From the NCBI RefSeq assembly GCF_023614525.1, contig NZ_CP097885.1:680501-744500 (forward strand): 64,000 nucleotides of DNA. The letters run 5' to 3'. The notes beneath the pieces were generated by a model. The model had not been told where the DNA came from. It saw only the letters and a list, made by a program, of their open reading frames with translations, and did not search any database. Position 1 is the stretch's first letter, and each line of letters begins with the position of its first letter. Position numbers and translations under genes: made by a program. The stretch is from Peptoniphilus genitalis (GTDB taxonomy: Bacteria; Bacillota; Clostridia; Tissierellales; Peptoniphilaceae). Positions 3,714 to 24,586 of this stretch are shown piece after piece.

Positions 3714-3751
3714 TGATTAGAATACCCTTGGTTGGAATGGTTATTATAATT

Positions 3752-3861
3752 AAAAAAGCCACCATATAGGTGGCTAAAATATGTATACCAATTGCTTATG
3801 AGTGACGATAACACATATCGCTTACCTAGATAATGGCACTTGAATAAGACTTACTGTTGGT
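3752..3861 (-). ncRNA. Small structured RNA downstream of the DUF3800 gene
   Basis: A complete transcription unit of about 110 nt with no reading frame. It has its own promoter (3868-3896) and ends in a GGTGGC/GCCACC hairpin followed by six U. The body folds into nested helices: P1 pairs 3857-3863 with 3785-3791 (7 bp), P2 3844-3848 with 3795-3799, P3 3837-3840 with 3801-3804, and P4 3816-3821 with 3805-3810 around a UGUGU loop. A 15-nt asymmetric internal strand (3822-3836) is left unpaired. The -35 box lies 4 nt after the DUF3800 stop codon. From memory, several distinct RNA motifs named DUF3800-I and onward have been described next to DUF3800 genes; I cannot tell whether this belongs to one. 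Confidence 0.72.
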
Positions 3862-3867
3862 ATGATT

Positions 3868-3896
3868 ATGATACTTTAAAAATAGAAAAAAGTCAA
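3868..3896 (-). promoter_or_regulatory. Sigma-A promoter of the small RNA
   Basis: TTGACT, exactly 17 bp, then TATCAT. The predicted transcription start is about 3861, where the first helix of the RNA begins. Confidence 0.78.
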
Positions 3897-3899
3897 GTT

Positions 3900-4571
3900 T
3901 TATAGGGGGAATTCAAAAATACATTTTAAGATTCCATTGTCTCTTAAAATTTTAAACTCATCTGCGTAATTACCTGTTTTTAGATGAGAATACAAGATAT
4001 TTGAGAAAACATCAGCGATTTGAATATTTGAGTTATTGGCAGAGTCAAAATATGAAACTGCAAAATTCCCTTGATTAATCCCAGTTATGCAAAGCTCAGT
4101 GTTTAAATAGTCCTCAAGAAAGAATCTCGATTCGGTTCTTTCATTCCTTTCATCAAGTTGTAAAAAATGATTATCACTTGGTATGTAATTATTTCTTATG
4201 AAGTAATCCAGTGCTATTTTTAATAGGTAATTGAAAACTCTAGATGTATTTGAACAAAAAGTATCTTTGAGTCTTGAATTGTCAACTTTTATGTAGAAAA
4301 TACTGAAGTTGCTTTTCCTTGCAAAGAAGTTTACAAATTCCTGTTTCATAGGTTTATCAAAAGCAGAACCTTTTAACTCATGAAATGTTCCATTTAAAAA
4401 CATTTTTTGCCTATTATCTATTCTTTTAAGTTCTTTAAGATTAGAGGCTACAAACCGTTTATAGGATCTTTTTAGAGTATTAGAATTATCTGGAATTATT
4501 AACGTTATAATAAAGTATTCATTTTTAAACTGATTATTAATTGTTCCTGATTCATCGATATATATGTTCAT
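3900..4571 (-). CDS. DUF3800 domain protein (putative RNase H-fold nuclease)
   Basis: This 223-residue cytoplasmic protein has the DUF3800 signature: YIDESG at 4-9, HELKGS at 64-69, QLDER at 138-142 and IQIADVFSN at 183-191. The ordered acidic residues (D6, E7, E65, D140, D187) fit a metal-dependent RNase H-like active site; that activity is inference from the fold, and the role of the family is not established. The start is ATG 4571, preceded by GGAAGGA; longer in-frame starts up to 4694 have no ribosome site and run back over the promoter. It sits alone between core genes, is very AT-rich, and is followed directly by a small RNA, which looks like an acquired module, possibly of defence or toxin-antitoxin type. 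Confidence 0.85.
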   Translation of the reverse strand: MNIYIDESGTINNQFKNEYFIITLIIPDNSNTLKRSYKRFVASNLKELKRIDNRQKMFLNGTFHELKGSAFDKPMKQEFVNFFARKSNFSIFYIKVDNSRLKDTFCSNTSRVFNYLLKIALDYFIRNNYIPSDNHFLQLDERNERTESRFFLEDYLNTELCITGINQGNFAVSYFDSANNSNIQIADVFSNILYSHLKTGNYADEFKILRDNGILKCIFEFPL

Positions 4572-4599
4572 AGTTTGTCCTTCCAGTAAATATATTAAT

Positions 4600-4608
4600 A
4601 TTATATCA
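4600..4608 (-). promoter_or_regulatory. Extended -10 promoter for the DUF3800 gene
   Basis: TGATATAAT on the minus strand, with predicted start near 4593 and a 22-nt leader to ATG 4571. No good -35 is visible. Confidence 0.5.
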
Positions 4609-4611
4609 TAA

Positions 4612-4770
4612 ATGATTAAAATTTTAGGAACTGATAATATAGCCATTGTAAATTTAATATTTACCCATAAGGGCACAAGCAAGTCAATAAACAAGTCTAA
4701 AGACGAATATAGAATATCTTCATCTTATTTTTTATTTGGGAGAACAACAGCTGAGAGGAGAGTAAGCTAA
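4612..4770 (+). other. Unassigned 52-codon open frame overlapping the DUF3800 upstream region
   Basis: An ATG-to-TAA frame encodes 52 residues, ending in FGRTTAERRVS. No ribosome binding site precedes it and I recognise no family. It may be a gene remnant or chance. The rest of the gap, 4771-4998, holds AT-rich DNA with one short hairpin near 4820 and no gene I can support. Confidence 0.15.
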
Positions 4771-4998
4771 TTTACTGTCATGCAAATGATGGCAGATTAT
4801 TCATTTGCCATGGTTCTTGCTAAAACTTTAGCAGGACTTCCTCTTCATTTAAATAAAATAGGCGGTTCATGCTCGAAAAATTGTCATATATAATGCGATA
4901 AATGTAGAATTAAAAAAATAATGTTTTTAAAGTGCAAATAATCTAAAATTAACAAGTTTTTATAAGTTTAGAAATTTTTCCCACTTTCCAATAAAGTC

Positions 4999-5304
4999 CT
5001 ACTTCTTAAAAATACAAAGCCAGACTGCCTCTTTCTGCCATGAAACCTTGTGGATCTCGTGGGGTCTTATTACCAAGCTGTCCCCTTCTCCTAAGTCAAG
5101 TCTCCTTCCATCTTCATATTCTATTTGGGCCTTGCCCCTTAATAAGAATACTATCTCAAGTTCATCTTGGTCATAAAAGCCTGTGACTTGGTCAAGGGAC
5201 ATTGTCCTAATAACTTTTATCCCATCGTCTTCATAAATTTTTTCTTCAATTTCTTCTTCACTAGAAAATCTTATATTTTTAAAAATATTGTATAATTTAT
5301 TCAT
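4999..5304 (-). CDS. Small single-domain cupin protein
   Basis: This 101-residue soluble protein has a cupin core: FYDQDELEIVFLLRGKA, then LDLGEGDSLVIRPHEIHKV around residues 69-87. The usual metal-binding histidines are only partly kept (H83). Such proteins bind small ligands or act as sugar isomerase-like or sensor domains; the substrate is unknown. No Shine-Dalgarno precedes the ATG at 5304, and an extended -10 element sits so close that the mRNA may begin at the start codon. It is divergent from the Nim-like gene at 5382, and the two promoters lie about 40 bp apart. Confidence 0.75.
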   Translation of the reverse strand: MNKLYNIFKNIRFSSEEEIEEKIYEDDGIKVIRTMSLDQVTGFYDQDELEIVFLLRGKAQIEYEDGRRLDLGEGDSLVIRPHEIHKVSWQKEAVWLCIFKK

Positions 5305-24265: not shown

Positions 24266-24400
24266 AATAACTCTCCTTTATATTGTTTGTTTGTTATACT
24301 TGTTAATATTTTACCCTTTAACATTTAAATTAATCACATTAACTCAAGATTATTCAAAACAAGAATAAAATTCATATAAATAAACATTTAAAATAATAGT

Positions 24401-24586
24401 AAAAACCGCAATGCCGATACCTAGTTAATTCACACCCGCCAATAATTATGGTGGGTAAAAAACTTGATAGCGTATTCTGACTTCCGCTCAAAGACGGCTT
24501 GTCATAGGACGCTCATACACAGTTTCCCGTGTTTAATTTGTCGGTTGAATTAAATAGGCATTCTTCGTACATCGCAGAATTTACTT
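24401..24586 (-). ncRNA. Structured non-coding RNA of about 185 nt (family unassigned; 6S- or raiA-like)
   Basis: It has a consensus promoter and ends in a U5 run. The ends pair: 24569-24577 with 24406-24414 (9 bp), then 24547-24561 with 24417-24431 (15 positions, one mismatch, one wobble). Inside are three branches: a 6-bp GAAA-tetraloop hairpin at 24517-24532; a compound stem 24501-24512 with 24470-24481 capped by CCG/CGG; and a strong hairpin 24434-24456. No reading frame is preserved. A 6S RNA would have closing stem, central bubble and apical stem; the small hairpins could sit in that bubble. A raiA-type RNA is the other candidate. Confidence 0.72.

Follow-up and report, generated by a model that had tools for sequence, protein, structure and literature searches.

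A DUF3800 gene paired with a small structured RNA in Peptoniphilus genitalis and in phages: a candidate RNA-inhibited nuclease module

We have analysed a gene for a DUF3800 protein and the small structured RNA beside it in a 64,000-nt stretch of the Peptoniphilus genitalis genome (GCF_023614525.1, NZ_CP097885.1, 680,501-744,500); this whole stretch is called the window, and all coordinates of the locus are window positions. The gene lies on the minus strand (3900-4571, ATG at 4571) and encodes 223 amino acids, and a likely -10 element TATAAT (4605-4600) and a likely ribosome-binding site GGAAGG (4584-4579) were recognized by eye in front of it (4579-4605, minus strand). The promoter of the RNA, TTGACT-17-TATCAT, is found at 3896-3868 on the same strand and begins 4 nt past the stop codon of the gene, where the original prediction, made from the sequence alone, had placed it. 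The RNA core of 93 nt (3776-3868, minus strand; 98.6 bits with model R1) is composed of the minus-strand helices P1 (3866-3857/3791-3782), P2 (3848-3844/3799-3795), P3 (3840-3837/3804-3801), P4 (3836-3835/3826-3825) and P5 (3820-3816/3810-3806), and contains the conserved unpaired segments AACAGUAAGUC and GGUAAG. It is followed by an intrinsic terminator (3752-3775, minus strand), consisting of a stem at 3775-3757 and a U tract, and the RNA ends at about 3752.

The folded RNA beside the DUF3800 gene is real, because its relatives, collected from Bacillota, one Treponema bin and phage contigs, show covariation. From a 23-RNA alignment, RNAalifold recovered the same helices unaided, with compensatory changes at 18 of the 26 predicted pairs, and the comparison of homologous loci that had been proposed as a check thus came out in favour of the fold. 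When 41 RNAs were fitted to the model with its 26 pairs, 93.3% of cells were paired compared with 72.3% in shuffled and 35-36% in alignments slid by one column, and two-sided changes were seen at 23 of the 26 pairs; this alignment leans towards its own structure, and the unaided fold of 23 RNAs is the fairer test of covariation. The folding energy of the window RNA is -27.2 kcal/mol (z -2.5 against shuffles). The helices are confirmed by this covariation; they form a three-way junction closed by P1, P2 and P3, and not the four simply nested stems of the original prediction.

A single promoter-like match is uninformative alone (10 found, 9.9 expected), and the weight of the promoter comes from its homologs: 83% of the homologous promoters score at least 9/12 compared with 11% in shuffles, and in most homologs the position beside the gene is kept and the -35/-10 pair stands at a constant distance from P1. 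Terminators follow 71% of the homologous RNAs and 13% of the shuffles.

The protein matches Pfam DUF3800 (PF12686) at 42.6 bits, compared with a gathering cut-off of 21 (E 1.3e-10), and residues D6, E7, E65, K67, D140 and D187 are conserved in an alignment of 42 sequences (A6). Its AlphaFold2 model has a pLDDT of 93 and a pTM of 0.91, and the best matches of this model among solved structures are RNase HII/H2 and H3, the first sixteen having Z of 11.6-9.3 and standing above the next group. On the RNase HII structure 1eke (Z 11.6, rmsd 3.2, 162 residues aligned; model 1-201 on chain 2-173), the first strand YIDESG is aligned with the strand bearing the DE pair, and D140 and D187 would then be the remaining two acids of the RNase HII-like set. 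The DE pair is followed by SG, where the RNase HII motif has AGRG. The protein is thus predicted to have an RNase HII fold and a nuclease role; it shares with RNase HII/H2 the fold of the predicted model and the DE..D..D conserved acids, whereas it differs in its low identity (about 10%), its partner RNA and its patchy, mobile and not housekeeping distribution. The authors of FLSHclust likewise assigned DUF3800 to the RNase H fold (PMC10910872). PADLOC and NCBIfam searches gave no match to the protein, a PDB sequence search gave nothing meaningful, and Abi_2 was not matched in the Pfam search. Of 398 genomes of the same phylum, 59 gave matches to DUF3800 proteins, and the window copy is the sole DUF3800 gene of its own genome.

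A genome scan gave 51 loci, and linkage was counted in 35 genome loci (L026-L060), several of which are near-identical prophages and so are not all independent. The RNA was found nearby in 32 of these 35 loci; the gene is intact in 32 loci, 30 of which have the RNA. When the 398 genomes were searched starting from the RNA, all three matches outside the own genome were found to adjoin DUF3800. Run without filters, R1 also detected RNAs immediately downstream of DUF3800 genes in Streptococcus satellite phages (about 30% identity; E 3.5e-5 and 1.4e-4), as well as a weak match of this kind in a Listeria phage (E 0.0024). Linkage, covariation, the conserved promoter and the predicted RNase HII fold together strongly support the original suggestion that a nuclease-fold protein is paired with its cognate RNA. 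The RNA is mostly downstream of the gene, and it may also be upstream (L050, L085), on the opposite strand (L041) or doubled (L053-L057); since position and strand vary, the arrangement of the loci indicates that the RNA acts in trans. Two RNA copies of differing sequence per locus were seen in L053-L057, L088, L090 and L163, the first copy usually being without a terminator and the second having its own promoter. Weaker R1 matches (E 2e-5 to 1), each with its own strong P1, were also seen immediately downstream of distant DUF3800 genes of Bacilli (L061-L070), and these RNAs are probably a shorter form of the same class.

The locus is part of an insert (3720-4999) that has a glutamate-synthase-like gene on one side and a cupin gene on the other. 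In congener G009 the site is empty, with the junction 3719|5000: L150 joins window position 3719 to 5000. The GC content at the locus is 0.27-0.33 compared with 0.42-0.43 upstream. The idea of an AT-rich insert between core genes therefore held, but the insert is longer than was thought, and it includes what is left of the 5' part of a phage portal gene (4619-4879, plus strand), the prophage neighbour of the cassette; complete portal-like open reading frames are present in the matching loci L145 and L146. Prophages of Peptoniphilus and Anaerococcus carry the same module (protein 94% identical) antisense between terminase and portal genes, the cassette of a Lachnospiraceae locus (L033) likewise lies between these two genes, and the cassettes of phage contigs L082 and L086 adjoin the terminase gene. 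Because of the portal remnant and of a homology to prophages that stops at the RNA terminator, the window copy is most likely the remainder of a prophage region. Other mobile settings are near integrases, or at the cargo end, in Streptococcus satellites and a Listeria phage. Congener G006 has the same DUF3800 module as the window. In G002, G003 and G012 the chromosomal slot 3720-4999 is occupied by a gene for an ATPase that has two ATP-binding domains and, by eye, resembles ABC-F proteins.

RNA-first scans of IMG/VR gave 20 phage contigs with a strong model match, 12 with an open DUF3800 gene and eight without an intact one; pattern matches without a significant model score (L155, L156, L168-L171, L173-L175, L196-L202) were not counted. 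In these eight, the gene has an in-frame stop in L012, is truncated in the identical contigs L158 and L159, and is absent from the whole record in L153 (124 kb), L165, L166, L167 and L172. An in-frame stop, at codon 111, was also seen in L010 and L031 (prophage, RNA intact). The RNAs of the contigs without an intact gene are 90.9% paired compared with 78.0% when shuffled, and their helices are kept and covarying. Since phages without an intact DUF3800 gene keep such RNAs, the RNA would not be lethal by itself; the orphan phage RNA may be a decoy. The usual promoter is not evident by eye in L153, L165, L166 and L172, and these RNAs may be transcribed together with neighbouring phage genes.

The RNAs of L165 and L166 are 94% identical and the neighbouring proteins 51% and 24%. 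The identity of 94-97% extends over the orphan RNA and about 137 nt downstream of it (L165 8536-8764, L166 1379-1607), and this stretch appears to be a mobile or strongly selected unit. In L167 (7209-8379), in the terminase-portal slot of the phage, an RNA of 94.8 bits with its own promoter and terminator follows the 3' end of an Abi_2 gene, as a single instance. Toxin swapping, with Abi_2 as a second partner of the RNA, was considered here and rejected, the other Abi_2 relatives searched being all without the RNA.

The Rfam scan did not recover any of the known DUF3800 motifs at its cut-off: no family was above its own threshold at the window RNA locus, and no DUF3800 family was found at E<=5 in ten related loci. 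DUF3800-I (RF02969) reached 23.2 bits compared with a gathering cut-off of 44.2 (E 0.92) in a full-length alignment, in which the three-way junction with the UAAGCG linker aligns at this sub-cut-off score. The abiF motif (RF03085) was absent among the Rfam matches at the window locus, and matches to MicA, sraA and others were rejected as sub-cut-off terminator and A/U similarity. Because no Rfam family reaches its cut-off, the class of the window RNA is, by these scores, absent from Rfam; DUF3800-linked RNAs as a kind are already known. The DUF3800-I to XI RNAs in Rfam were reportedly described by Weinberg et al. in 2017. The window RNA resembles them in being a small structured RNA adjoining a DUF3800 gene, in that R1 also detects the RNAs beside DUF3800 genes of satellite phages and possibly in the three-way junction with its linker, which aligns at the sub-cut-off score, whereas it differs in the scores given above, in P1 closing the whole RNA and in the AACAGUAAGUC internal loop. 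In the open-licence literature searched, no earlier description was found of the RNA class, the phage slot, the trans arrangement or the orphan phage copies.

We give about an even chance to a toxin-antitoxin-like, RNA-inhibited nuclease, which would work like AbiF-RCd22 or ToxIN and be a member of neither. Among the three proposals of the original prediction, namely RNA guidance, RNA inhibition of the type III kind and defence, RNA inhibition is the best remaining option. An inhibitor fits best because the RNA appears to act in trans, has a constant sequence and a strong promoter, neighbours a gene of predicted nuclease fold and seems to be tolerated and kept alone in phages. The mobile module would have two parts, a nuclease with the RNase HII fold and a small RNA acting in trans. 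The RNA, overproduced by a strong promoter of its own, would hold the nuclease inactive by binding via the three-way junction and the unpaired AACAGUAAGUC and GGUAAG. If the supply of RNA stops, for example through phage shut-off of host transcription or loss of the element, the nuclease would be released and would damage the cell or the intruder. Prophages and satellites would carry the module as cargo, possibly against rival phages, and RNA-only phages may use the RNA as an antidote. The occurrence of the module in phages and satellites makes a defence role plausible. We put forward tentatively, as possible, that RNase HII-fold nucleases with three-way-junction RNAs form a widespread toxin-antitoxin-like class, and that the orphan RNAs conserved in diverged phages without DUF3800 are decoy antidotes.

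AbiF-RCd22 and AbiF-AbiFr have the same composition of a phage-borne protein and a small structured RNA in trans, and the AbiF pair has been tested as toxin and RNA antitoxin, the phage-encoded AbiF toxin being neutralised by RCd22 (PMC12373285). AbiF, however, belongs to the Abi_2/HEPN proteins and its abiF motifs lie upstream, whereas the window protein is predicted to fold like RNase HII and has a different RNA. ToxIN and other type III systems would be alike in RNA inhibition of a nuclease and offer a precedent for RNA mimicry, since the ToxI antitoxin is reported to be mimicked by a phage (PMC3475682). The present module is nevertheless not a classical type III system in RNA composition or gene order, and probably not in protein fold: the RNA is a single unit (or two 93-nt copies elsewhere) and not a short tandem repeat array, and it is mostly downstream with its own promoter, whereas the ToxIN RNA is upstream with a terminator between. 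The best structural matches were RNase HII/H2 and ToxN was unlisted, which does not exclude a ToxN-type fold.

Several points weigh against an inhibitory RNA. An intact DUF3800 gene has no RNA of the class nearby in L039 (3001-3672, with an mreB-like neighbour) and in L049 (contig ending 220 nt further), and an obligate antitoxin would not predict a gene without the RNA. The records with orphan RNAs may be fragments. The strain-specific DUF3800 gene HL77S_00079 of Legionella pneumophila was scored as essential by transposon sequencing, which would suit a protective protein (PMC7811196). It is equally conceivable that the nuclease needs the RNA as a cofactor.

This last explanation, in which a ribonucleoprotein effector depends on the RNA as activating cofactor or scaffold in order to cut or to sense phage, is the most serious alternative, and we consider it rather doubtful. 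Any specific ribonucleoprotein would be expected to show such close linkage and such strong conservation of unpaired segments, and some Cas12a2 and type VI-F loci include DUF3800 as an accessory (PMC10910872, PMC12669027); however, phages that retain the RNA without the protein are easier to understand if the RNA is an inhibitor than if it is one half of an effector, and in L039 the protein occurs with no RNA beside it. Reversed roles, with a harmful RNA removed or masked by DUF3800, seem unlikely: the accessory DUF3800 gene of Legionella that scored as essential among antitoxin genes (PMC7811196) would suit them, but the RNA has survived, with its promoter or its helices intact, at loci where the gene is missing, cut short or interrupted by a stop.

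An RNA-guided nuclease or homing element, as first suggested, is very improbable. A mobile nuclease with a structured RNA and a slot shared by several phages would suit it, but no variable unpaired (guide) segment was found in the 41 RNAs, whose sequence variation is confined to covarying helices or short loops, and near-identical RNA occurs in different sites. We give equally little credence to control of its own gene by the RNA, in cis or via antisense pairing, for which the adjacency and a possible pairing of the window leader UUACUG with CAGUAA might speak: order and strand vary between loci, UUACUG is present only in the window type, and the predicted pairing with the own leader (-26.4 kcal/mol) is no stronger than with the leaders of others (-27.4 kcal/mol), so that antisense pairing with the own mRNA was dropped as giving no signal. 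An unrelated function, such as that of a phage maintenance RNA linked to DUF3800 only by a shared cargo slot, might be read from the orphan RNAs and from the Abi_2 neighbour in the same slot of L167, but is hardly probable given that linkage holds at many sites in chromosomes and phages and that similar RNAs adjoin the 30%-identical DUF3800 genes of satellite phages.

For the study of DUF3800 partner RNAs, the locus provides a small, well-defined pair with a confident predicted fold and mapped RNA helices, and phages having the RNA without the protein are natural separation experiments; the roles of the two parts are therefore directly testable. If phages do carry the RNA as an antidote, this would add another example of RNA mimicry directed at bacterial suicide systems.

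Three minor observations may be added. Downstream of the DUF3800 gene of L049 (3700-3929), at the contig end, there is a different possible RNA closed by UGUUUCAAUU/AAUUGAAACA. CRISPR repeat arrays flank the DUF3800 gene on both sides in L105 (24-1033 and 2777-2872). In the window itself, a 6S RNA (61.2 bits) is located at 24399-24583 on the minus strand.
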